DNA of 21,189 nt from a virus (IMGVR_UViG_3300047409_000163:1-21189), one strand, 5' to 3'. Shown: positions 2,334-13,208, numbered from the stretch's first letter. Made by a program: numbers and translations. Notes: generated by a model not told the origin, from the sequence alone.

Positions 2334-2484
2334 TTGCTTCCTCAGGCTTGTCGGGCGGTTTTTCTCCCCGGAGAATTTTGTCGATTTCTTCGGCTAGTTC
2401 TGGACTCATAAAAGCAGCTAGCGTTTGAACTGCTTGCTCAAGCCGATCGACTCTCCGATCAATTTGGAGCTGAGGCTGTGCCAT
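2326..2484 (-). CDS. 52-aa coiled-coil protein between polymerase and SSB-like gene
   Basis: This short gene of 53 codons with stop starts at ATG 2484, inside the last nine codons of the polymerase. It ends TAA at 2326, overlapping the start of the SSB-like gene. An AAGGAG ribosome site lies eight bases before the ATG. The product begins MAQPQLQIDRRVDRLEQAVQ. It has heptad-like spacing of hydrophobic residues through about residue 25, then a helix (SPELAEEIDKILRG), and ends in a proline/acidic tail. I do not recognise a family. A small coiled-coil partner of the polymerase or the SSB-like protein would fit its position, but this is an inference. Overlap on both sides and the strong ribosome site are why I accept it. 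Confidence 0.75.
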   Translation of the reverse strand: MAQPQLQIDRRVDRLEQAVQTLAAFMSPELAEEIDKILRGEKPPDKPEEANA

Positions 2485-5400
2485 TCACAAACTCCTTATA
2501 GGAACCGAATTGTTCGATGGTTTTTACCGCTACGTCACTCAACTTCTCGAAATATGACATGTCGATTTTAAGGTCGGGAATTTCTTTTGCAATTTCGGCC
2601 TCGACCCATTGATGCCCTTTCGTGCCAGTTACCGCGTAATACTTTTCATCTTTGACGCGATAGAGGGTCCCCCCGCCTTCGAGTACAGGAACAAACCGGC
2701 CAGTCCTGCCGAGATGGCGCATCCTGCGATGATCCAGCTCTTCATCTTCCTCGTGCTCCTCTCTGTCTAGGTACATCGTCCCCTGGATGACGTTCTTGTT
2801 CTCACAGAAATCGTCGAAACCAAGTTCCTCACCAGAGAACAGAGTTTTGAATACATAGGGATGTTGAAACTGAGAGCCTACCGCGGTCCAGGTATTACCT
2901 TTGAGAGCAATATAAACGGCATCGTTGACGAGACAGAGTTTGTCGTACGTAATCTCATGCTCAAAGTCGTAGCCGTATTTCTTACCGTGCTCAATCACAA
3001 AGTCGATGACACCTTCTCCACCGCCGGAGGCGTAAGGGAGTTTTACCGAGTCGGTCTTGATGTGCACGACGGCATGGTGATTGTCCTTTAGATCGTTCTT
3101 CAAGTCGATCATGTACAAGGCACCACGCTTAGCGACAATGTTGTCTTTATTACGAGGATCGCGAAATGGATTAGGGAAGCTGGCTGAGGTCAAGCCATAA
3201 ACTATGTTGATCACGATCTTCAATGCATACGCTAATTTGTCGGCGCCATCTTCATTCTTTAGATAAGGCGCCAATTTGCCGTCCAACATCTTTCGAGCTA
3301 CTGCATAGTCGTGTCGCTTTATTGCTAATCTTGCTTCTTTGAGATCCGTGAATCTTTCGGTGTACTTTCCAAAAAGATTTAAGATCTCAATTGACGTTGG
3401 GTGCATCGATGCTATATCCAATAGAGCAACGCTAGAATAAATTCCAGGTTCCGCATAGACATAGCCGCCTTCTCCGGGATTCTCGTCACGGTATGAACTC
3501 TTACCAGCGTCAAATACATAACCAGGGAACTCCTGACTGAGATCGGTATACACAAAATATTGTTGGGGGTTCTTATCCTTCCCAAATATAATCTGTGCTG
3601 TATGGCGTTGTGTCGTGTCATTAACAGTCAATCCACTGAGTTCAGCCAAGATTTGACGCGCGACGAAGTCTTCCCAGCGATCTTCGAGCACAGCTTCGGT
3701 TGCTCGAACATCGTTGATACAGTATTCGACTACCCTTGGAATATCCTCCTCCGCTACGGGCTCGTCCAAGGGAAAATCCAACTCCATGTGATGAATGCCG
3801 AGATCTATCTCGAACTTCTTCAAGCCTTGCTTGATGGAGCTGAAGTCCCACACATCGGAATATGAAAGATTGTACGCTTGCGCGAACATAGCGTTGCGAT
3901 TGTTGTCTATAACAATCTTCCGTGCCAGATCATAAAGTTGCCCAACGCTATACCCAAGCAAAGCAGCGTAGAGTATATGATTATCAAAGCGCCGATTGTA
4001 AAACCCCACTAATTTAAGTTTGGTCAAAGCCTCAATTTCAGCCTGTGACGGATTGATCATCGGAGTGACGTGGTCGTCTCCTCTAAATTTCCAACAAACG
4101 ACAAACAAATTGGGATAGACCTCGATGTCAAATATGACCATTCGTTCGTCGTCTACATCGACAACAGCATCTGATTCAAGCTCCTCCTCGGATTTGAAAC
4201 GCATCGTCTGAACGGTTTTCAGACATGTGGCAGCTTGGTGCGTGCTGTTGTTGGCGAATGCTAGAATGCGTGGACGCAGATCTGTGACGTCATACTTAAG
4301 ATCGGATTCATGAGCCTCCTCGAGGATATGCGCAATGAAGTCGATCGATGGTTTGGTGCCAGGGTGAATCTCTTTCTTGAGATTCCGCTCTATTAGATCC
4401 CTAAGACCCTTTTCACTTGTAATCGTCTTAGCCTTAAGCATCTTCTCCTTCTTCTTAAGAGGGAGCCCACTATTGATCGTCGCAATTGGAACAGCGTTGC
4501 ACATCGTCAATTTGCGACGTAACGAAGCATCTCCCGTATACGCCTTGATTTCGATGCCCTCGGAGTATTCGGTTGCTAGCTGAGAAGGATCTCCTTCATA
4601 GTTGTAATGAAGATGTACTCCTTCACCAGATTTGCTGAGCTCGGCATACGTGGGTGGCCATTGGCTCGCGGCCTCGAGATTTCGTTCGAGCGCAGTAACG
4701 CCGTTGGTTTCCTTCAAGTCGAAGTCGATGACGATATGTTTTTCGGGTACCCTTACGTAGTGGAGTTCCTTTGTGTCAATAGCTGAAAGAGTCTTCTTAA
4801 CATTTTCCCACTTTCGTCCAGGAACTCCCTTTGAATTTGCGAGCTGCGCAGGCTGATTCGCAAACTCACGATCAAGGAGTGAATCAGTTTCGCCCATAAC
4901 CAGAGAAAATGCCGGTAGCTCTTCGCTACTCTCCTTAGGAAATTTAAACTTGTCAGCATTAAATCCAGAATAGAGACTTCGTAGTTGTTCTCCATCTACT
5001 TCACCTCGGTCTAGGAACTCATCGAAGTAGTTACGTAGCTCTTCACGAATTTTGTACTGAGGCAAAGGTCGCTCAATGCCACTTTCCAAACACCATTCTT
5101 TGTACAAACCATATGCCTGTTTCAAGGTCGTGTAATTTTGGGATTTGAACACGTCGTAATAGGCTTCGATAAAGTTGAAAAAGACGTCCGTTTGCAGCAT
5201 CATTTCCAACGGTCGATAGCCATTGTAGTAGTTCCGACCCATGCTCAAATATACGTTCAGGCAATGCTTTGCAATCGCGCCTAACTCGAAATCTATACGC
5301 TCGAGTAAGTGCGTGTAATGCCGAATAGGAATCCTAACACCCGTAGGATGAATATCGATCAATCTTCGGATAATTCCTGATTTGGCGTCCGTGATTTTAA

Positions 5401-6235
5401 CAGGCTGATTCGAGCCGATGAAAAGCAAAGCGTCGGCCCTAGAAGTGTAACTCGGCTTATACTTCTCGTTGATGACCATTTGTTCATGAGCAACGATTGA
5501 ATTCAGCCGAGTGTTATCTTCAAGTTTGGACAGATCACCATCGTGTTGAATAGCAACGAGAGGGTTGTGTTTGAAAGCTTCCGTAGAGAAATTAGTCTCC
5601 GAGCGTCCGAGCGCTTTTCCGTCGAACGCCGTCGTATAGCCGTCAAACAATTTATGCAGAATGTTCAAGATAGTGGACTTACCGGATCCAGCGGGGCCAT
5701 AGAAAACGAAGAATTTTTGAATTTTCTTCGAGTCTCCAGCCACGATGGATCCGATAGCCCATTCGATCTTTGCCCGCTCTTCTACTGAATACAACGTGCC
5801 AACGAGCTCGTCCCAAGCAGAAATATCGCCCTCTTCTATGGGGTAGTTCAAGTGCCTACTCGCATAGTCCCGTTTTGTTATTTCGGAATTCGAAAACAGA
5901 ACCTTGGAGTCAAGAGAGCGATTGTTGTCACTGATATAAGTCAAGAATTGTTTGAACTTCGCCCACGTGTTGCTCTGGAACGATCGCATGTACTTCACGA
6001 TATAGTTCATACCAGTTTCCTGACGTAGCCTATCGGCTTCAGCTTCCAGCTCTTCGTCTACTAGCCGCTGTACGTCGTACTCATCACGAGACCAAAGACC
6101 TTTTTCTGCGTCCCAGATTGCATAAAAGGTCCGTCCTTGAACCATCAGATCCTGAGAACGTCCGACGATGAAATCAGGGTACAATTCCATACGCTTATCT
6201 TTCGTTTCTCTAGACCGGATCTGATAGAAGTCCAT
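2459..6235 (-). CDS. Fused SF3 helicase, AEP primase, exonuclease and family B DNA polymerase
   Basis: This 1258-residue protein carries most activities of a replisome. Residues 150-300 form an SF3-type helicase: Walker A GPAGSGKS (180-187), a Walker B-like strand ending HD (231-232), sensor SN at 275-276 and an arginine pair at 290-291. Residues 490-600 resemble an archaeo-eukaryotic primase core: DFD at 504-506, SGEGVHLH at 536-543 and a third acidic residue near Glu562. Then comes a 3'-5' exonuclease: Exo I DIE (703-705), Exo II NRRFD (747-751) and Exo III YCIND (838-842). Polymerase motif A is DIASMHPTS (940-948). Motif B is K1006...N1010..YG1014. Motif C is KTDS (1060-1063), where family B normally has DTDS. 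The start at ATG 6235 has GGGAGGG just upstream. Its likely role is replicating the phage genome, with the SSB-like protein encoded next. The helicase preceding the primase reverses the usual order. Confidence 0.9.
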   Translation of the reverse strand: MDFYQIRSRETKDKRMELYPDFIVGRSQDLMVQGRTFYAIWDAEKGLWSRDEYDVQRLVDEELEAEADRLRQETGMNYIVKYMRSFQSNTWAKFKQFLTYISDNNRSLDSKVLFSNSEITKRDYASRHLNYPIEEGDISAWDELVGTLYSVEERAKIEWAIGSIVAGDSKKIQKFFVFYGPAGSGKSTILNILHKLFDGYTTAFDGKALGRSETNFSTEAFKHNPLVAIQHDGDLSKLEDNTRLNSIVAHEQMVINEKYKPSYTSRADALLFIGSNQPVKITDAKSGIIRRLIDIHPTGVRIPIRHYTHLLERIDFELGAIAKHCLNVYLSMGRNYYNGYRPLEMMLQTDVFFNFIEAYYDVFKSQNYTTLKQAYGLYKEWCLESGIERPLPQYKIREELRNYFDEFLDRGEVDGEQLRSLYSGFNADKFKFPKESSEELPAFSLVMGETDSLLDREFANQPAQLANSKGVPGRKWENVKKTLSAIDTKELHYVRVPEKHIVIDFDLKETNGVTALERNLEAASQWPPTYAELSKSGEGVHLHYNYEGDPSQLATEYSEGIEIKAYTGDASLRRKLTMCNAVPIATINSGLPLKKKEKMLKAKTITSEKGLRDLIERNLKKEIHPGTKPSIDFIAHILEEAHESDLKYDVTDLRPRILAFANNSTHQAATCLKTVQTMRFKSEEELESDAVVDVDDERMVIFDIEVYPNLFVVCWKFRGDDHVTPMINPSQAEIEALTKLKLVGFYNRRFDNHILYAALLGYSVGQLYDLARKIVIDNNRNAMFAQAYNLSYSDVWDFSSIKQGLKKFEIDLGIHHMELDFPLDEPVAEEDIPRVVEYCINDVRATEAVLEDRWEDFVARQILAELSGLTVNDTTQRHTAQIIFGKDKNPQQYFVYTDLSQEFPGYVFDAGKSSYRDENPGEGGYVYAEPGIYSSVALLDIASMHPTSIEILNLFGKYTERFTDLKEARLAIKRHDYAVARKMLDGKLAPYLKNEDGADKLAYALKIVINIVYGLTSASFPNPFRDPRNKDNIVAKRGALYMIDLKNDLKDNHHAVVHIKTDSVKLPYASGGGEGVIDFVIEHGKKYGYDFEHEITYDKLCLVNDAVYIALKGNTWTAVGSQFQHPYVFKTLFSGEELGFDDFCENKNVIQGTMYLDREEHEEDEELDHRRMRHLGRTGRFVPVLEGGGTLYRVKDEKYYAVTGTKGHQWVEAEIAKEIPDLKIDMSYFEKLSDVAVKTIEQFGSYKEFVNGTASAPN

Positions 6236-6772: not shown

Positions 6773-7517
6773 GCTCTTCTGGATCTACCCCTTTTACTTC
6801 CGAGGCATAGGCTTTCCACGATCTGCAGAGTTCGAATTCGATCCCAACTCTTTCGTTGCGAACGAAGAGGACATCTGAGTCGTCTGAACCGTGCCCGAAC
6901 TTTTTCAGGTTCTCCTCACCTACGACCAACTCTGGCCGTACAACAACCTCGTCGTCCTCGTCGGCGAGAATATCATCACCCGCATAGTACGTCCACGTCT
7001 TCTGTCCGAGTTCTAGTTGATTGTTGTTGAACTCGTCCTGGTGGATAATGTACGGATGATTCGGGCTACGTGTTTGCATTTCCACACCATAATCCCACCC
7101 AAGATCTTTCTCTTTTGCGGTTTCACGGGTCTTTGGGTACTGAACTTCACGCGCTTGTTCAACAATTGGTTCTCTGACAGGTACTGGCGGTCGCGTCATG
7201 CGCTCTTCGACAACATCATCGAGAGACGGCTTCTGTGGGACGATACGCTCTTCGTCCATTGGCTCTGCTGTCTGATCTTTTTCGTACTTGTCGTGGTAGT
7301 ACATCCGAACCTCAACCATGTCCTGTTGCGCTTCTTTGAGAACTTCGGCTCGGATTTTTGCTCGATTGAAACGATATCCAAAGAAGAAACCGACGGCGAC
7401 ACCAAACGCTGCACCAGCGGCAAATCCTTGAATAAAACTCGTATTGATCTGTCGAGCAGCTTCGGCAACTTCTTCGATATGATCAGCCGCTTGGTTGGCT
7501 ACGGATTCAACTGCCAT
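6735..7517 (-). CDS. Single-pass membrane protein with acidic soluble domain
   Basis: This 260-residue protein begins with an amphipathic helix. A Gly/Ala/Phe-rich membrane segment follows at about residues 28-47 (GFAAGAAFGVAVGFFFGYRF), then a basic stop-transfer region. A proline-rich linker spans about 85-135. The C-terminal domain contains SPNHPYIIHQDEF, WTYYAGDDILADEDD, VVGEENLKKFGHGS and VLFVRNERVGIEFEL. I recall the 'HPYxIxxDEF...TYYxGDD' and 'FGHGS...VRNE' segments from other siphophage proteins of unknown function. The charge pattern puts the soluble part in the cytoplasm. The start at ATG 7517 overlaps the DUF6353-like gene by 19 bases, with a GGGAGAAAGG element upstream. It probably works with its neighbours in a membrane-associated complex, inferred only from gene order. 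Confidence 0.8.
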   Translation of the reverse strand: MAVESVANQAADHIEEVAEAARQINTSFIQGFAAGAAFGVAVGFFFGYRFNRAKIRAEVLKEAQQDMVEVRMYYHDKYEKDQTAEPMDEERIVPQKPSLDDVVEERMTRPPVPVREPIVEQAREVQYPKTRETAKEKDLGWDYGVEMQTRSPNHPYIIHQDEFNNNQLELGQKTWTYYAGDDILADEDDEVVVRPELVVGEENLKKFGHGSDDSDVLFVRNERVGIEFELCRSWKAYASEVKGVDPEERALDEDQDETRS

Positions 7518-8428
7518 GACAACCTTTCTCCCGGATTATCGATTTTGTCGTAGATTACGCCATCGACATTGAAATCGAGAAGAACGGATCCCTCGAATCC
7601 ATTCACGAAATCTCGAGCTTTCATGGTCTGACCTTCGAAAACCCCGAACGAAACGTAGTTGTCAGATTGTGGATGATGCTTTTGATGCAGCCAGCCGACA
7701 ACAGCTCCGGCTTTGGTGTGTGGCAATCCCAATCTCGCGTAGACTTCGTTCAAGAACAGATGCCCACGAGAAATGAGAATATCGTTGCAGTAGTTCTGTT
7801 CCGCTTTCAGAAAGATCAGGTTGTACTCGGGTTCCTTGCTCCATCTCGGAGAGTTACTGTCGAAGAATTTTGCATAAATCGACTCTCCCTGCGGCCCTAC
7901 TCGTACTACCGTCTTCTTCTCTTTTGTCTCGGGATCCTCGGTTGTGATCTCTCGAGTCCCGTAGCGCAATTCCTGGTCTACTTCTGGGCCGTACTTGTTC
8001 ACCACACGAGCTCGATACTCTCTGAAGCCTTTGTCGAGTGCAGCATATGCCGCCGTCAGACCTGCATTTCGCCTTGTCAGGATGCCATGAGAGCTCGTTA
8101 GAGCGGCGATCGAGAATCCACCCAGGACAATCGCGGGAGCGTACGCCCTTACCAGCTTGATTCCAGTCTGATAACGAACGAGCGCAAGATCCTTTTTGCG
8201 ATCCATCTCGCTATACTCCGGATGGTCCATATTCTTAGCGAGATCTACCTTCTCTTTCGCTTCGGTCAAAATTACATCAGCCTTCAACGTCGCTCGACAC
8301 GCGAGGACTGTACTTCCCACCATGCCAACGATGCCCGCGGCAAAGAGAAGTTCTGGAGAACTCTTAGACGCGAGCAACGCTCCATGGGCGACCTGTCTTG
8401 AGATCGCTGCTGGAACGAACTTCATCAT
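7499..8428 (-). CDS. DUF6353-like membrane protein (copy 2)
   Basis: This 309-residue protein has two membrane segments, at about residues 24-46 (SPELLFAAGIVGMVGSTVLA) and 94-115 (YAPAIVLGGFSIAALTSSHG). Between them lies a charged helical stretch of about 45 residues. After the second segment comes a conserved RRNAGLTAAYAALDKGFREYR helix, then a soluble domain with GLPHTKAGAVVGWLHQ and a beta-rich C-terminus. Layout and motifs match the protein at 10470-11258, and both resemble the DUF6353 family of phage proteins as I remember it. The start at ATG 8428 has AAGGAG five bases upstream. It lies 6 bases after the 61-aa gene and overlaps the next gene by 19 bases. Function unknown. The charge pattern suggests a cytoplasmic C-terminal domain anchored to the inner face of the membrane. 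Confidence 0.8.
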   Translation of the reverse strand: MMKFVPAAISRQVAHGALLASKSSPELLFAAGIVGMVGSTVLACRATLKADVILTEAKEKVDLAKNMDHPEYSEMDRKKDLALVRYQTGIKLVRAYAPAIVLGGFSIAALTSSHGILTRRNAGLTAAYAALDKGFREYRARVVNKYGPEVDQELRYGTREITTEDPETKEKKTVVRVGPQGESIYAKFFDSNSPRWSKEPEYNLIFLKAEQNYCNDILISRGHLFLNEVYARLGLPHTKAGAVVGWLHQKHHPQSDNYVSFGVFEGQTMKARDFVNGFEGSVLLDFNVDGVIYDKIDNPGERLSWQLNP

Positions 8429-9606: not shown

Positions 9607-9837
9607 CTAGTTGTTGTTCCAACTGTCGGGTGCAACTGCATCGATGGCGGATTCCGTCGCGGTAGCAACTACCACAGCAACCAGAATCGCGATCATCAGG
9701 GCTGAAGTCTGGAATGCAATGTTTTGCATTTTCGACTCCGGCTTCCTGAATTTCCTGAAACGGTCGCTGGCAGCTCTACCAGCAACGTATCCAACCATGC
9801 GTGAAGTCGCCCAACGGGCAACAGCAAATGTTGGCAT
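9607..9837 (-). CDS. Small single-pass membrane protein, 76 aa
   Basis: This 76-residue protein has a basic N-terminal half (ARWATSRMVGYVAGRAASDRF, then RKFRKPESK) and one membrane segment at about residues 45-64 (ALMIAILVAVVVATATESA). The tail is short and polar (DAVAPDSWNNN). The positive-inside rule puts the N-terminal half in the cytoplasm. The start at ATG 9837 has AAGGAG six bases upstream. The gene is a complete cassette, with its own promoter at 9864-9888, a ribosome site and a strong terminator at 9552-9585. I do not recognise the family. Function unknown. Confidence 0.75.
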   Translation of the reverse strand: MPTFAVARWATSRMVGYVAGRAASDRFRKFRKPESKMQNIAFQTSALMIAILVAVVVATATESAIDAVAPDSWNNN

Positions 9838-9851
9838 GAAAAACTCCTTTG

Positions 9852-9898
9852 TAGTGGGCTTTCATAATACGGTATGTTTTTTCTGCGAAAACCCACTA
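9852..9898. repeat. 12-bp inverted repeat enclosing promoter A
   Basis: On the plus strand, TAGTGGGCTTTC (9852-9863) is matched by GAAAACCCACTA (9887-9898), its reverse complement except for one base. The arms enclose the promoter at 9864-9888 and lie beside its -10 box and its TCGC box. It may be an operator, or it may fold as RNA only in transcripts that come from upstream of the promoter. Confidence 0.6.
9864..9888 (-). promoter_or_regulatory. Promoter A (TCGC-box class) of the 76-aa gene
   Basis: The TCGC box starts at 9888 and the -10 box TATTAT starts at 9869, 19 bp further. Conserved C residues stand at positions 13 and 18 of the spacer, as in five other copies. Transcription should begin near 9857, some 20 bases before the ATG at 9837. 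Confidence 0.7.
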
Positions 9899-9903
9899 AA
9901 AGG

Positions 9904-10434
9904 CTATTCAACCAGCCGTGCTGTCCCGTCAATCAGCTCTTTTTCCGCTTTTTCGAGCTCTTCTTGGTTCATTTGAATCATGTCTTGTCGACGTATGGCT
10001 CGTACAGCTTTCTCTGGTTTCGGAACCTCTTTCAGCTCACCGCGTTGCTCCAACGCCTTCTGAGTTTCTTCCACTAGATCAGAAGGCATGATTCCGTTTA
10101 TGAACTCTGTAGCCACCTCTGCGTCCGTGACCAATTCCATGAACAGCGTGGAATATGCCTCCGTGGATGCAAACTCATCACGAATCTCTTGGTTCTTGAT
10201 AAAGCGCTTTCCGTCGTCTGACCGTTTTCCATACGAGCTCAATATGATGTTCTTGAATTCGGTGATAATGCTCTTATTATCCTCGGAAGCGATGATGCGC
10301 TCCAAGGAGACGGACAGACCACCACGATGACTCATCTCGAGCTCGACGAGTTCGGCACGTGAGAGATGAAAGTAAAAATCCTCACTTACTTCTTCGTCAT
10401 TGAAGTCTTTGTAGGTGATCGTTTTCTTGAGCAA
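9904..10434 (-). CDS. Tail-assembly-chaperone-like protein
   Basis: This 176-residue soluble protein starts at TTG 10434. A TGA in the same frame just upstream rules out an earlier start, and AGGAG lies 11 bases before the TTG. It reads MLKKTITYKDFNDEEVSEDF, then FYFHLSRAELVELEMSHRGG, an acidic helical middle with IILSSYGKRSDDGKRFIKN, STEAYSTLFMELVTDAEVA and EFINGIMPSDL, and a charged C-terminal helix. I remember this layout from siphophage proteins usually labelled tail assembly chaperone, which bind the tape measure during tail building. The family call is from memory. Such genes normally stand just before the tape measure gene, whereas this one lies about 4.8 kb after it, so a different role is possible. 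An out-of-frame ATG at 10444 precedes the TTG. Confidence 0.7.
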   Translation of the reverse strand: MLKKTITYKDFNDEEVSEDFYFHLSRAELVELEMSHRGGLSVSLERIIASEDNKSIITEFKNIILSSYGKRSDDGKRFIKNQEIRDEFASTEAYSTLFMELVTDAEVATEFINGIMPSDLVEETQKALEQRGELKEVPKPEKAVRAIRRQDMIQMNQEELEKAEKELIDGTARLVE

Positions 10435-10469
10435 ATCCGGTCATACTCCTCTCGTACCTGAGTTTGTAT

Positions 10470-11258
10470 TCAGTCGTACAGACGCTTTGTGTAGTCTGAC
10501 GTAGGGAGAGGCGTGAAGTCCACCGCCAAGCATGGCTTCTCGTCGTCGGACAACACTGTTGTGAGATTGACTTCGAGATTCTCGTTACCCTGCCAACCCA
10601 CCGTATCCGTGTACGTCGTCGGAGGCAGGCCCACTTCTTCGTAGAACAACGACAGACTCGCGTACATGAAGTTGTTCAACTCTTTGTTGACTCGATTCTC
10701 TGCTTTCCGAAGCTTCTCAGCCGAGCTCAAGAAATATCGACCAGTCAACATGTCGTAGCAAAGCACATCCCCGTTACCCGTGATGATCACTTGACTCGTG
10801 TCGTGCGGGTTCTTCAAGATCCGGTCTCGGGCGATCTCTTCCCGAATCTTTTCGTTGTTGCCCTTACCCAGTCGTTCGTACACTTTCTCCTTGTATTCCG
10901 AGAAAGCACGCTCGGTGATCCCAGACGCGAGCGCTAGGGCAGCGATTCGCCTGGACGAGACCTTGTTGGCCATGACGATTGCAGCCATCGTGCCAGTCAT
11001 CACGGTCGCTGGCGGAATATAGTGTCGCCAGACAAGCTTGACCTTTTGCATCTTCGACGGCTCTTCTCCACCAGTCTGCTCGTAATGCATGATCTGATTG
11101 TGATCAATGAGACGAGCTGCCTTGAATGACGCACGACCCGTCAAATATGCGGTCGCACCTGTACCAACAACGCCTACACCCGTCAAAATCGTAGGCATGT
11201 TCTCGTTCATGAGAAACTTAGCTTTATGGGCTATTCCAGCCAGTCCAAGTGCGTTCAT
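10470..11258 (-). CDS. DUF6353-like membrane protein (copy 1)
   Basis: This 262-residue protein has two membrane segments at about residues 21-43 (PTILTGVGVVGTGATAYLTG) and 79-100 (HYIPPATVMTGTMAAIVMAN). A charged helical region lies between them. After the second segment comes SRRIAALALASGITERAFSEY, then the soluble domain: NPHDTSQVIITGNGDVLCYD, GRYFLSSAEKLRKAENRVN, MYASLSLFYEEVGLP and a beta-rich end. Of the two copies in the window this one fits DUF6353 better, as I remember the family. The start at ATG 11258 has AAAGG upstream. It follows the 51-aa gene by 25 bases, with no terminator between them, so promoter B probably also drives it. Function unknown; membrane attachment is clear from sequence. 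Confidence 0.85.
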   Translation of the reverse strand: MNALGLAGIAHKAKFLMNENMPTILTGVGVVGTGATAYLTGRASFKAARLIDHNQIMHYEQTGGEEPSKMQKVKLVWRHYIPPATVMTGTMAAIVMANKVSSRRIAALALASGITERAFSEYKEKVYERLGKGNNEKIREEIARDRILKNPHDTSQVIITGNGDVLCYDMLTGRYFLSSAEKLRKAENRVNKELNNFMYASLSLFYEEVGLPPTTYTDTVGWQGNENLEVNLTTVLSDDEKPCLAVDFTPLPTSDYTKRLYD

Positions 11259-11283
11259 CTTATGCCTTTCACTTTAGGGGACG

Positions 11284-11439
11284 TCAGCCGTATGGCCACG
11301 GTGCCGTATTTCTCTTGCGCATCTCACGGCAGAAGATCCAGATCAACCACAGCCCCAAGGTCAGAAAGACCATGAAGCAGTCGAACAAGAAATTAAAGAA
11401 CCCGTAGCGCTTGGGTTCTTGAATAAAGACGGGATACAT
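11284..11439 (-). CDS. Small membrane protein, 51 aa, paralogue of the 40-aa protein
   Basis: I set the start at ATG 11439, where an unusually complete ribosome site lies five bases away. Longer frames to 11511 would run through the branched inverted repeat and are rejected. The product begins MYPVFIQEPKRYGFFNFLFD. It has one membrane segment at about residues 17-36 and ends WIFCREMRKRNTAPWPYG. The basic C-terminus suggests it faces the cytoplasm. It is clearly related to the 40-aa protein at 12384-12506: both share RYGF, DC, LWLIW or FWLIW, and REMR-RNT. It is the first gene after promoter B and probably cotranscribed with DUF6353-like copy 1. Function unknown. Confidence 0.8.
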   Translation of the reverse strand: MYPVFIQEPKRYGFFNFLFDCFMVFLTLGLWLIWIFCREMRKRNTAPWPYG

Positions 11440-11451
11440 GATCACCTCCTT
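11440..11451 (-). promoter_or_regulatory. Perfect 12-base ribosome binding site
   Basis: AAGGAGGTGATC on the minus strand is fully complementary to the conserved 3' end of bacterial 16S rRNA (GATCACCTCCTT). It is followed directly by the ATG at 11439, five bases after GGAGG. It fixes the start of the 51-aa gene and suggests strong translation, or slow ribosome release because of the pairing. Confidence 0.85.
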
Positions 11452-11461
11452 AGGTAGACAC

Positions 11462-11520
11462 AAAAAGAAGGGATCGCGCTGTATCGCGCAAGTGTCCTCT
11501 TCCGAAGACACCTCCCTTCT
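11462..11520 (-). terminator. Branched inverted repeat with T-tract in leader of the 51-aa gene
   Basis: An outer 8-bp perfect repeat (11466-11473 with 11513-11520) encloses two hairpins. One is GTGTCTTC closed by a GGAA tetraloop (11492-11511) and the other is GCGC-GATACA-GCGC (11476-11489). On the minus strand TTTTT follows the outer stem. The 5' arm lies between the -10 box of promoter B and its expected start site. Only RNA arriving from upstream would therefore carry the complete outer stem, and this would be the terminator of the 117-aa gene. Structure seen by eye; the function is inferred. Confidence 0.6.
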
Positions 11521-11545
11521 ATTATATGAGTTGTTTTTCTTGCGA
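11521..11545 (-). promoter_or_regulatory. Promoter B (TCGC-box class) of the 51-aa gene
   Basis: The TCGC box starts at 11545, overlapping the stop of the 117-aa gene region. The -10 box TATAAT starts at 11526, 19 bp away. Both conserved spacer C residues are present. Expected transcription start is near 11514. Confidence 0.75.
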
Positions 11546-11546
11546 A

Positions 11547-11900
11547 CTACCCGGTTGTTCCAACTCCAACGATCTTGTAGTGAAGGCCGTTAAGATGCGG
11601 ATTGTGGCCATGCAAATGACGGGACATGCGTGCCAAAGGTACACCAGCAGATTTGGCTGACTCTGTAACTTTCTCCCACACTTGACCCGTCTCGAGGCAT
11701 TTGACCAATTTAGTCGTATGTCCCGCAAAGTTGACTTGCTGATTGCTGTTATTGAACACTGGCGCAATCGAGATAACTATTGGCTTCCGGATGGCCAACG
11801 TTATAGCAACACCAATGCCGATGCCGATGTAACGCTGTTTGTTTCTTCGAAAATGTGCCTTGATTCCTTCACCATCAGGAAAATTAACATTGTGTTCCAT
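11547..11900 (-). CDS. Membrane-anchored protein with NUMOD1-like DNA-binding domain
   Basis: This 117-residue protein has a basic juxtamembrane segment (KAHFRRNKQRYI) and a membrane segment at about 24-46 (GIGIGVAITLAI, then a KP, then IVISIAPVF). A short linker follows, and then a C-terminal domain at about 65-115. That domain (VKCLETGQVWEKVTESAKSA, then GVPLARMSRHLHGHNPHLNGLHYKIVG) follows the NUMOD1 pattern: a beta strand, a helix, then a helix-turn-helix with S/RMSRHL and a final aromatic strand. NUMOD1 modules usually sit in homing endonucleases and bind DNA; here no nuclease is present. The start at ATG 11900 has GGAGC upstream. The HFRR...YI anchor resembles that of the 71-aa protein upstream. 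It may tether DNA to the membrane, which is an inference. Confidence 0.75.
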   Translation of the reverse strand: MEHNVNFPDGEGIKAHFRRNKQRYIGIGIGVAITLAIRKPIVISIAPVFNNSNQQVNFAGHTTKLVKCLETGQVWEKVTESAKSAGVPLARMSRHLHGHNPHLNGLHYKIVGVGTTG

Positions 11901-11923
11901 AGTAGCTCCTTTCGAGCATAGAG

Positions 11924-12011
11924 AAATAAAAAGAGAGATCTATCTAGTAAGTACTGCTAATGCAGCGCGAACTAGGAGTACTGCTAATGCAGCGCTCAAA
12001 TAGATCTCTCT
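11924..12011 (-). terminator. Branched inverted repeat with T-tract in leader of the 117-aa gene
   Basis: A perfect 12-bp repeat (11932-11943 with 12000-12011, AGAGAGATCTAT and its complement) encloses two identical hairpins, CTGC-TAAT-GCAG, at 11954-11965 and 11981-11992. TTTTATTT follows the outer stem on the minus strand. The upstream arm lies directly beside the -10 box of promoter C and reaches past the expected start site near 12005. RNA made from promoter C would thus keep only about half of the arm. It has the same plan as the element at 11462-11520 but no sequence similarity. Confidence 0.6.
11951..11995. repeat. Two direct copies of an 18-bp hairpin unit
   Basis: GTACTGCTAATGCAGCGC occurs at 11951-11968 and again at 11978-11995, a 27-base period. 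Each copy contains its own 4-bp hairpin. The copies are identical, so they arose by duplication or are kept the same, for example as a paired protein-binding site. Confidence 0.85.
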
Positions 12012-12036
12012 ATTATATGATGTGTTTTTTTCGCGA
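12012..12036 (-). promoter_or_regulatory. Promoter C (TCGC-box class) of the 117-aa gene
   Basis: The TCGC box starts at 12036 and the -10 box TATAAT starts at 12017, 19 bp apart, with an A-rich spacer and both conserved C residues. The box overlaps the tail of the terminator at 12034-12066. Expected start near 12005. Confidence 0.75.
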
Positions 12037-12066
12037 AAAGGAAAGTCCTTGTTAGAACCTTCCTTT
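12034..12066 (-). terminator. Terminator hairpin after the 71-aa gene
   Basis: On the minus strand, AAAGGAAGGTTC (12066-12055) pairs with GACTTTCCTTT (12047-12037), with a seven-base loop and one bulge, ending in TTTTC. It begins 7 bases after the TAG of the 71-aa gene. The T-run is short, so efficiency is uncertain. Confidence 0.55.
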
Positions 12067-12072
12067 GAGACA

Positions 12073-12288
12073 TTAACTATTTCTCCATTCTTTCAAAGCG
12101 TATTGTACATCGACGTTATCACCGACGAAACGGTCAAGTTCGAATATGTCATCTAAAAGTTCTTTGGTAAGCTTTTCGCTTTCCTTTTTTTGTGCATACA
12201 GCACAACAATCAGGATAGCAGCAACGCTTACTATATACTTTCCACGATGACGACGAAAATGATTTCCAATTTTGCGAAGTCGATTCAT
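12073..12288 (-). CDS. Small single-pass membrane protein, 71 aa
   Basis: This 71-residue protein has a very basic N-terminus (MNRLRKIGNHFRRHRGKYI), a membrane segment at about 19-33 (IVSVAAILIVVLYA), and an acidic C-terminal helix (KKESEKLTKELLDDIFELD, then YALKEWRNS). The strong positive charge at the N-terminus puts that end in the cytoplasm. The start at ATG 12288 has AAAGGAGC seven bases upstream. Its HFRR....YI anchor is shared with the 117-aa protein downstream, which suggests the two genes share an ancestral anchor. It is a complete cassette: promoter D, ribosome site, gene, and a hairpin terminator at 12034-12066. Function unknown. Confidence 0.75.
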   Translation of the reverse strand: MNRLRKIGNHFRRHRGKYIVSVAAILIVVLYAQKKESEKLTKELLDDIFELDRFVGDNVDVQYALKEWRNS

Positions 12289-12319
12289 AATTAGCTCCTT
12301 TAATGTTTAATTAAGTCTC

Positions 12320-12344
12320 ACTATACGACGCGTTTTTCTTGCGA
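12320..12344 (-). promoter_or_regulatory. Promoter D (TCGC-box class) of the 71-aa gene
   Basis: The TCGC box starts at 12344, next to the terminator tail. The -10 box TATAGT starts at 12325, again 19 bp apart, with both conserved spacer C residues. Expected start near 12313, about 25 bases before the ATG, so the leader is short and unstructured. Confidence 0.75.
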
Positions 12345-12374
12345 AAAGGAAAGCCGTTGTTTTGGCTCTCCTTT
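12342..12374 (-). terminator. Terminator hairpin after the 40-aa gene
   Basis: On the minus strand, AAAGGAGAGCC (12374-12364) pairs with GGCTTTCCTTT (12355-12345), with one G-U pair and an eight-base loop, ending TTTTC. It follows the TAG of the 40-aa gene by 9 bases and runs into the TCGC box of promoter D. Confidence 0.65.
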
Positions 12375-12383
12375 CAAACTTAT

Positions 12384-12506
12384 CTACCACGCAGGGGTAT
12401 TCCTTCGGCGCATTTCACGGACAAACACCCAGATCAGCCAGAAGCCTCCTGTGAAGAAGGTCAAAAGGCAATCCAAGATGAATTTTCCGAATCCATAGCG
12501 TCGCAT
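12384..12506 (-). CDS. 40-aa membrane protein, paralogue of the 51-aa protein
   Basis: This 40-residue gene starts at ATG 12506, with AAGGAG six bases upstream. The product begins MRRYGFGKFILDCLLTFF, continues with a membrane segment at about 8-29 and ends VREMRRRNTPAW. It lines up with the 51-aa protein at 11284-11439 over nearly its whole length: RYGF, LDC or FDC, GFWLIW or GLWLIW, REMR-RNT. Both termini are basic, with more charge at the C-terminus. It is a complete cassette with promoter E, a ribosome site and a terminator at 12342-12374. Function unknown. The close paralogy and full set of signals make it a real gene despite its size. Confidence 0.85.
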   Translation of the reverse strand: MRRYGFGKFILDCLLTFFTGGFWLIWVFVREMRRRNTPAW

Positions 12507-12533
12507 GTCTACTCCTTAAATAGATTACGTTTC

Positions 12534-12558
12534 ACTATATGCGTGGTAATATCTGCGA
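12534..12558 (-). promoter_or_regulatory. Promoter E (TCGC-box class) of the 40-aa gene
   Basis: The TCGC box starts at 12558 and the -10 box TATAGT starts at 12539, 19 bp apart. The spacer is less A-rich than in the other copies but keeps both conserved C residues. Expected start near 12527, 20 bases before the ATG. Confidence 0.7.
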
Positions 12559-12611
12559 GTTGTATCGAAATTTCCCCCCGGGGATTTTTTGGATTTGAGA
12601 AAAATAAAGTG

Positions 12612-12651
12612 AAAGAAAATATGAAAGGCCGCTTTTACACGGCCCCTCATA
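12612..12651 (-). terminator. Rho-independent terminator after the 94-aa gene
   Basis: On the minus strand, TATGAGGGGCCG (12651-12640) pairs with CGGCCTTTCATA (12631-12620), with two G-U pairs and an eight-base loop. TTTTCTTT follows. It begins 12 bases after the stop of the 94-aa gene. This is the strongest terminator in the cassette region. Confidence 0.85.
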
Positions 12652-12663
12652 CTTGAGTTCCTT

Positions 12664-12948
12664 CTAATTCCTTACTCTTGCCTGCATGAGCAGTCCCATG
12701 GCTCTTGACGTCACGACGTTGACGTTCTCGTGCTTGATGATCATCAGGATGCCCAGAAGATTCGCTCCAATCACTGCGAGTGTATCTCGACTCACTCGTG
12801 TTGGTTTTTCTTCTCTCAACAGTCCATGAATCTTGACTATGTGCTCCAATGTCTTGGCGTATTCTTCTGAGCCTACCTGCTTGAACAACAGATCTCGAAC
12901 AGCTTCGTCATAAACGAGTTCGAGCCCAGTTAGCTCCTTATCGGCCAA
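12664..12948 (-). CDS. Conserved small phage protein, 94 aa
   Basis: This 94-residue protein starts at TTG 12948, five bases after GGAGG. It reads MADKELTGLELVYDEAVRDL, then a helix (SEEYAKTLEHIVKIHGLLRE), KPTRVSRDTLAVIGANLLGI and LMIIKHENVNVVTSRAMGL. The segment at about 56-70 is hydrophobic and could associate with the membrane. I recall 'VSxDTLxxxxANLxGIxMIxxxExxxVITSKAxxx' from other siphophage proteins of unknown function. It is a complete cassette with promoter F upstream and the terminator at 12612-12651. Its product is not clearly a single-pass membrane protein, so it differs from the other cassettes. Function unknown. Confidence 0.75.
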   Translation of the reverse strand: MADKELTGLELVYDEAVRDLLFKQVGSEEYAKTLEHIVKIHGLLREEKPTRVSRDTLAVIGANLLGILMIIKHENVNVVTSRAMGLLMQARVRN

Positions 12949-12971
12949 AATAACCTCCTTAGATAGGTCTC

Positions 12972-12996
12972 ATTATAGGAGTTGTTTCATTCGCGA
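12972..12996 (-). promoter_or_regulatory. Promoter F (TCGC-box class) of the 94-aa gene
   Basis: The TCGC box starts at 12996 inside the last codons of the 73-aa gene, and the -10 box TATAAT starts at 12977, 19 bp apart. Both conserved spacer C residues are present. Expected start near 12965, about 17 bases before the TTG. Confidence 0.75.
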
Positions 12997-13208
12997 CTGA
13001 GATCTACCTGAGAAGAGTCAACCTTGAAAACCACTTCTTTGCGAAATGCAAGTCTTTCGGGGTATTCGTCCAGTTCAAGGGAATATACCGTCTTTTCGTC
13101 CTCTTCCGTTACGAGGATAGTGCCGGTAGGATGCGTAAATAGCCTTTTGAGAAAGAATCCCACGATTACGCCTATACAGAAAATAACAACGCATATTAGC
13201 GGCTCCAT
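12987..13208 (-). CDS. Small membrane protein with C-terminal strand domain, 73 aa
   Basis: This 73-residue protein has an N-terminal membrane segment at about 4-20 (LICVVIFCIGVIVGFFLKRL), then GTILVTEEDEKTVYSLELDE, RLAFRKEVVFKVDSSQVDLS. The pattern of a membrane segment followed by 'G-T-L-x-V' and a 'V-x-x-K-V' strand is one I recall from small proteins of many siphophages, with no assigned function. The start at ATG 13208 has GGAGG four bases upstream. It follows the Gp37-like gene by 8 bases, so it belongs to the tail operon, and its end contains part of promoter F. The soluble part is small and beta-rich, and its charges suggest it lies in the cytoplasm. Confidence 0.75.
   Translation of the reverse strand: MEPLICVVIFCIGVIVGFFLKRLFTHPTGTILVTEEDEKTVYSLELDEYPERLAFRKEVVFKVDSSQVDLSRE

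Follow-up and report, generated by a model that had tools for sequence, protein, structure and literature searches.

Which RNA polymerase transcribes the run of small genes in the phage fragment IMGVR_UViG_3300047409_000163? This IMG/VR fragment, of 21,189 bases and 49% G+C and analysed here over its whole length (the window), carries on its minus strand six copies of a short element of the form TCGC-N8-C-N4-C-N-TATNNT. We propose that these six sites are compact promoters whose likely reader is a single-chain two-barrel RNA polymerase encoded by the phage itself, a protein of the family phrog_4291. What was computed directly is the motif with its geometry, strand and distribution, the joint occurrence of motif and polymerase, and the position of RNA stems flush with TATAAT; the promoter function of the sites, their reading by this polymerase and the exact start base are inferred.

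Under this proposal the promoter would be recognised as one unit of approximately 25 bp directly upstream of the start (-25 to -1), which the polymerase would contact probably through its terminal helix-turn-helix (HTH) domains. TATAAT would serve as the melting element adjoining the start, with the RNA beginning at the purine directly after it. Promoters would alternate with terminators, so that small genes and small structured RNAs are produced as separate short units, and the polymerase operon itself would carry a promoter of this class in most relatives.

Geometry of the six sites

The initial annotation had described six minus-strand sites with a shared pattern and a constant 19-bp geometry, and the pattern is exact at all six positions (9888, 11545, 12036, 12344, 12558 and 12996), without any mismatch; the plus strand of the window holds none. 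Second-order Markov simulations of the window (300 runs) gave a mean of 0.03 sites for both strands together, with a maximum of 1 in the 300 runs. The hexamer is TATAAT at three sites, TATAGT at two and TATTAT at one, and the consensus of the six is TCGCRNRAAWTACACGCCCTATAAT, followed by GAGA or AGAAGG. The spacing was also examined in a set retrieved without using the motif and comprising the window, ten named phages and 80 polymerase loci. In this set TCGC lies 15 bases before TATA[AG]T[AG][AG] 117 times and at any other gap between 8 and 23 bases at most twice, and a third element, ACA, is found 5 bases before the same box 123 times. The geometry is therefore rigid family-wide, and the single C positions of the pattern first described are part of ACA.

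All six hexamers are of the kind expected for a sigma-70 -10 box. A sigma-70 consensus scan found no TTGACA-like -35 box 16-18 bp upstream at any of the six sites, and only 4 sites elsewhere in the region against 7.4 expected. The sites might nevertheless be promoters of the host SigA, with a perfect -10 box and an unusual, dispensable -35 box, resembling each other through recent duplication, with the phage polymerase serving other genes. A poor -35 box is no obstacle to actinobacterial SigA, and the conservation of TATAAT would be natural under this explanation. Unless virions carry the enzyme, the polymerase gene also depends on another transcriber at the outset, and published notes on cluster DJ Gordonia phages call the motif a sigma-70 -10 (PMC9671010, PMC10868162). 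Set against this, the rigid 15-bp spacing between the boxes and the lack of enrichment of sigma-70-like promoters in the region do not fit SigA.

Start site and small structured RNAs

A small gene had been noted right after each copy of the element. At four sites this is directly so; the sites at 12036 and 11545 are separated from their genes by a structured RNA of 55-80 nucleotides (nt) with a terminator at its end. The closing helix predicted for the RNA at 12036 (small RNA A) starts at the base following TATAAT and reaches to the U-run, AGAGAGAUCUAU pairing with AUAGAUCUCUCU, and encloses two near-identical inner hairpins; folded as 11925-12011, it has a minimum free energy of -37.6 kcal/mol (z -6.0). 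The RNA at 11545 (small RNA B) is predicted to form a three-way junction closed by AGAAGGGA/UCCCUUCU, with AGAAGGGA directly after the TATAAT-type box and UCCCUUCU before UUUUU, and has a minimum free energy of -30.8 kcal/mol (z -5.7) when folded as 11461-11520. Removing six bases from the 5' end raises these values to -21.7 kcal/mol for B and -24.1 kcal/mol for A, with loss of all or half of the closing helix.

The same arrangement was found in a set of 657 non-redundant motif sites. A strong terminator stem lies near the promoter at 73 of them, and 67 of these 73 stems start at -4 to +4 of the base after TATAAT, compared with 0.1-0.7 per position in the shuffled control; stems starting further downstream are few, at the shuffled level. 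A purine follows TATAAT in every case in this set (581 G, 88 A). Since the closing helices of the small RNAs begin directly after TATAAT and end at the U-run, transcription probably starts there and not 7 bases later, which would put TATAAT near positions -6 to -1 and TCGC near -25. This revises the initial annotation, which had TATAAT at -12 and the start some 7 bases further on.

A start at the edge of TATAAT argues against a sigma-70 promoter: the predicted terminator-closing stems, beginning directly after TATAAT, do not agree with a start about 7 bases past a -10 box, and sigma-70 geometry would cut these stems off. It is also unlike the spacing of a bacterial holoenzyme in general, and this bears on a second alternative, namely that another phage protein, such as a small sigma-like factor or an activator, redirects the host RNA polymerase to the TCGC box. 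Phage switches of this type exist, for example the modification of the host polymerase for the middle and late genes of Thermus phage P23-45 (PMC10770324), and small annotated HTH genes are present in several relatives of the window. However, no other annotated regulator was noted in all genomes read, whereas the phrog_4291 polymerase is found in all and has HTH segments of its own, and we regard a redirecting factor as quite improbable.

Small RNAs downstream of promoters of this class are not particular to the window. In all loci taken together 55 cases were counted, of 24-128 nt, with the 5' end helically joined to the base before the U-run (for example window 11932-12011 and 11466-11520, and L001 5461), and 28 of the 55 have two inner hairpins, that is, a three-way junction. 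The tRNA of Rhodococcus phage ReqiPoco6 (L003 14604-14710) likewise follows a putative promoter of this class, and its leader pairs with its trailer in the manner of the small RNA ends.

Distribution of the motif and the two-barrel polymerase

A near-identity nucleotide search of the window against cultured phages yielded a single 38-base match, and relatives were therefore identified by protein searches. They are siphophages of Gordonia, Rhodococcus, Streptomyces, Arthrobacter, Curtobacterium and Microbacterium, with those of Lactococcus more distant; a network of the clusters BI, AM, AU, CC, DJ and EL has already been recognised among them (PMC7302621). Eight sequences went into a motif profile, from which the lineage under scan was omitted each time. 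It found 6 sites in the window and 9 in its 98%-related contig, 13 in Gordonia phage Gill, 11 in Gordonia phage Secretariat, 14 in Rhodococcus phage ReqiPoco6, 9 and 7 in Streptomyces phages ClubPenguin and Moozy, 9, 10 and 12 in Arthrobacter phages Circum, CapnMurica and Michelle, 9 in Curtobacterium phage JoyLin, 13 in Microbacterium phage Count and 6 in a saliva siphovirus. Lactococcus phages P1046 (8 sites) and 1706 (9 sites) carry the variant TCACATGTTTTACACATGCTATAGTAGAAAG, and a Faecalibacterium phage has 2 sites, of which 1 is weak and the sole convincing one precedes the polymerase operon. All profile sites lie on the gene strand only, minus in the window and forward in 15 of 15 other sequences, and Markov controls gave zero sites. 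The motif is thus not local to the window, and neither absence from relatives nor random scatter was seen.

A longer form of the motif matches at least 120 IMG/VR stretches, of which 115 (115/120) carry open reading frames of the family, and its reversed pattern, used as a control, matches 0. Five motif-bearing stretches are without family reading frames (L024, L099, L124, L133 and L135); L124 encodes a small RNA of the same design as those of the window and may be a divergent relative. A stricter form, run against 84,980 bacterial and archaeal genomes, matched one contig, a 6-kb contig of a Clostridiales metagenome-assembled genome (L218 3896-3926, minus strand) without family genes, which may be a phage fragment. 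Apart from this contig and the five stretches just named the motif is confined to the polymerase-bearing phage family, for which no member lacking the polymerase was found for comparison. In view of the profile, IMG/VR, reversed-control and genome counts, the motif is a signal of the phage family and not a host promoter. Together with the presence of the same boxes in phages of unrelated hosts, Lactococcus included, the practical absence of the strict form from bacterial genomes makes SigA an unlikely reader of the six sites.

The element might also be mainly a repeat for the shuffling of gene cassettes, or the operator of a regulator, rather than a promoter. The repeat has been tied to rearrangements in Gordonia phage Mossy (PMC11008172), and the genes between the promoters differ among relatives. 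However, the sites lie on the gene strand, typically directly upstream of a start codon, a tRNA or a small RNA, and what is preserved is short boxes with a divergent spacer, not long identical repeats, so that we give this explanation very little credence.

The phrog_4291 protein, of approximately 900 residues, is encoded by every named relative examined, near one genome end (mid-record in the Faecalibacterium phage). It is present in 250 phage records, many of cultured phages and Vardy among them, and is usually annotated as 'RNA-dependent RNA polymerase' or 'HTH protein'. The signature LSGADFDGD is invariant, with DFDGD in 13 of 13 named relatives, and HTH segments are found at both ends of the protein, some of them resembling sigma-70 region 4. 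A predicted model (mean predicted local distance difference test, pLDDT, 79) matches the two-barrel polymerase QDE-1 with Z 18.9 (355-377 residues aligned, root-mean-square deviation 4.3-4.7 A) and the RNA polymerases of Thermus phages P23-45 and P74-26 with Z 14; the modelled catalytic core has a QDE-1-like two-barrel fold throughout.

Of 13 genomes, 11 have a motif-like site (weak in one of them) 880-1075 bp ahead of the polymerase gene, where it precedes a nuclease-exonuclease-polymerase operon. Of the 80 environmental polymerase loci 55 have at least one motif site, and the motif strand in polymerase loci is forward 87 times and reverse once. The leader of the polymerase operon is conserved as AGAAGGGATAGAATA or similar, followed by a terminator-like hairpin (L003 45794, L005 45871, L010 34136, L011 30482, L012 45853, L014 27683 and many of L136-L215), and this leader may be an attenuator limiting polymerase synthesis. 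The polymerase may be packaged in the virion, for which two annotation labels are the only hints: record GU580942 labels it 'structural protein', and the ReqiPoco6 annotation note names 1706 gp75 a structural protein. An unpackaged polymerase would first have to be expressed by way of the host polymerase.

Several observations weigh against the phage polymerase as the reader of the six sites. TATAAT is an ideal sigma-70 -10 box, for which a separate polymerase has no need. The start-site argument is drawn from predicted RNA stems, and about half of these extend 1-4 pairs into TATAAT, roughly as chance pairing would add, which leaves the start uncertain by a few bases, but does not move it 7 bases downstream. 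The window ends before the expected place of the polymerase gene and does not contain it; contigs of the same lineage that reach far enough (DNA polymerase 71-85% identical to that of the window) in many cases encode the RNA polymerase, usually with the motif on the same stretch. In Lactococcus phage 1706 no motif was found near the polymerase gene. Finally, all of the evidence is sequence-based. Motif and polymerase are features of one phage family and may have been passed down side by side without any functional tie, so that finding them together is not by itself proof of the polymerase reading the motif. The weight of the proposal lies in the non-sigma-70 geometry, the stems at the start site, the conservation across phyla and the absence from host genomes. 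Two broader statements of the initial annotation, that the six sites form one promoter class unlike ordinary sigma-70 promoters and that a phage protein reads them, appear very probable.

Should the phage polymerase be the reader, these phages would not need host sigma factors, in keeping with their low G+C content and with the many host genera over which they have spread, and the promoters could serve for orthogonal expression in Actinobacteria. Outside Thermus phage P23-45 hardly anything is known of the promoters used by single-chain two-barrel phage polymerases; the motif offers a sharp promoter candidate for a polymerase family of about 250 sequenced phage records, as well as pointing to a large set of unstudied phage small RNAs. 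To the most inclusive picture we give about an even chance: a widespread phage family with hosts in two phyla would use a sigma-independent single-chain RNA polymerase, recognising a self-contained 25-bp promoter via fused HTH domains, starting at the edge of TATAAT and feeding its own operon, the same promoters producing a large undescribed set of three-way-junction small RNAs.

Related systems and organisation of the window

The class had been taken to be new. MEME analyses of Vardy, Conley and Mossy, Gordonia phages of cluster DJ, have already yielded the motif itself, at a length of 43-50 bp and with a part named 'sigma-70 -10' (PMC9671010, PMC10868162, PMC11008172); what stands of the earlier claim is that it is very probably not an ordinary sigma-70 promoter. 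It is the same motif in the same small-gene region, and Vardy carries the phrog_4291 polymerase, but these reports concern one phage cluster, read the box as a sigma-70 -10 and do not include the polymerase link, the start-site geometry or the small RNAs. These last three and the cross-genus distribution are new here. No paper linking the motif to the phrog_4291 polymerase was found in a search mostly outside the subscription literature, so that an earlier mention is possible.

T7-type promoters are compact, with a TATA element adjoining the start site and a purine start, and in these respects resemble the proposed promoters; both the polymerase fold and the promoter sequence are unrelated. 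Thermus phage P23-45 is the functional precedent for a phage two-barrel polymerase with its own promoters (PMC10770324). It is likewise a siphophage with its own single-chain two-barrel RNA polymerase and, ahead of phage genes, with a short conserved motif whose presence goes with that of the polymerase, and its solved gp64 and the homologue gp62 match the predicted phrog_4291 model at the Z of 14 given above. The polymerase family and the hosts differ, and the P23-45 promoters rest on ChIP-seq and cappable-seq, whereas those described here are known from computation. A polymerase fused to the tape measure protein, as in P23-45, was sought in five genomes of the family, and no DxDGD motif was present in their tape measure proteins.

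YonO of SP-beta is also a single-chain DNA-dependent two-barrel RNA polymerase of a siphophage, whose promoter sequence was reported as undetermined in 2017 (PMC5467207). The phrog_4291 polymerase gives a weak profile match to phrog_8308, limited to the catalytic region (E 2e-4 to 1e-3), but no significant overall sequence match to YonO (hhalign probability 1.9; BLASTP E 0.22). With no recognisable homology along the protein and the catalytic region alone weakly matching, the phrog_4291 polymerase is not a close homologue of YonO. Reading by eye, no obvious copy of the motif was seen upstream of yonK.

The features of the window are listed in Table 1. Its genes include tape measure, distal tail and minor tail genes, the small-gene run, and genes for a DNA primase/polymerase and a single-strand annealing protein. 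Promoters 3 and 4 (12344 and 12036) each adjoin a terminator-like stem-loop, so that the region would work as a series of short, separate units. Promoter 1 overlaps the 3' end of the preceding gene (12987-13208).

Table 1. Putative promoters, predicted RNA structures and associated genes of the window
Feature	Coordinates	Strand	Remarks
Putative promoter 1, TCGCGAATGAAACAACTCCTATAAT	12972..12996	-	predicted first transcribed base 12971; would drive 94-residue gene 12664-12948 (phrog_5818)
Putative promoter 2, TCGCAGATATTACCACGCATATAGT	12534..12558	-	predicted start 12533; would drive 40-residue gene 12384-12506 (phrog_29296)
Terminator-like stem-loop, T-run extending into promoter 3	12346..12373	-	read directly from sequence
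Putative promoter 3, TCGCAAGAAAAACGCGTCGTATAGT	12320..12344	-	predicted start 12319; would drive 71-residue gene 12073-12288
Terminator-like stem-loop adjoining promoter 4	12037..12066	-	read directly from sequence
Putative promoter 4, TCGCGAAAAAAACACATCATATAAT	12012..12036	-	predicted start 12011
Small RNA A	11932..12011	-	predicted fold
117-residue gene (phrog_27818), beyond small RNA A	11547..11900	-	
Putative promoter 5, TCGCAAGAAAAACAACTCATATAAT	11521..11545	-	predicted start 11520
Small RNA B	11466..11520	-	predicted fold
52-residue gene, weak phrog_29296 match, beyond small RNA B	11284..11442	-	
Putative promoter 6, TCGCAGAAAAAACATACCGTATTAT	9864..9888	-	predicted start 9863; would drive 76-residue gene 9607-9837
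DNA primase/polymerase (phrog_4210)	2459..6235	-	used for phage placement and in the search for lineage contigs with both motif and RNA polymerase gene

No known RNA family was found in the window by Rfam and no tRNA by ARAGORN. Two genes (7499-8428 and 10470-11258) are phrog_2152 paralogues. The family phrog_29296 is matched by two tiny genes, 12384-12506 and 11284-11442, each with a promoter of the motif class upstream, and the second of these contains a 38-base stretch that is 97% identical to gene 75 of Gordonia phage Secretariat.

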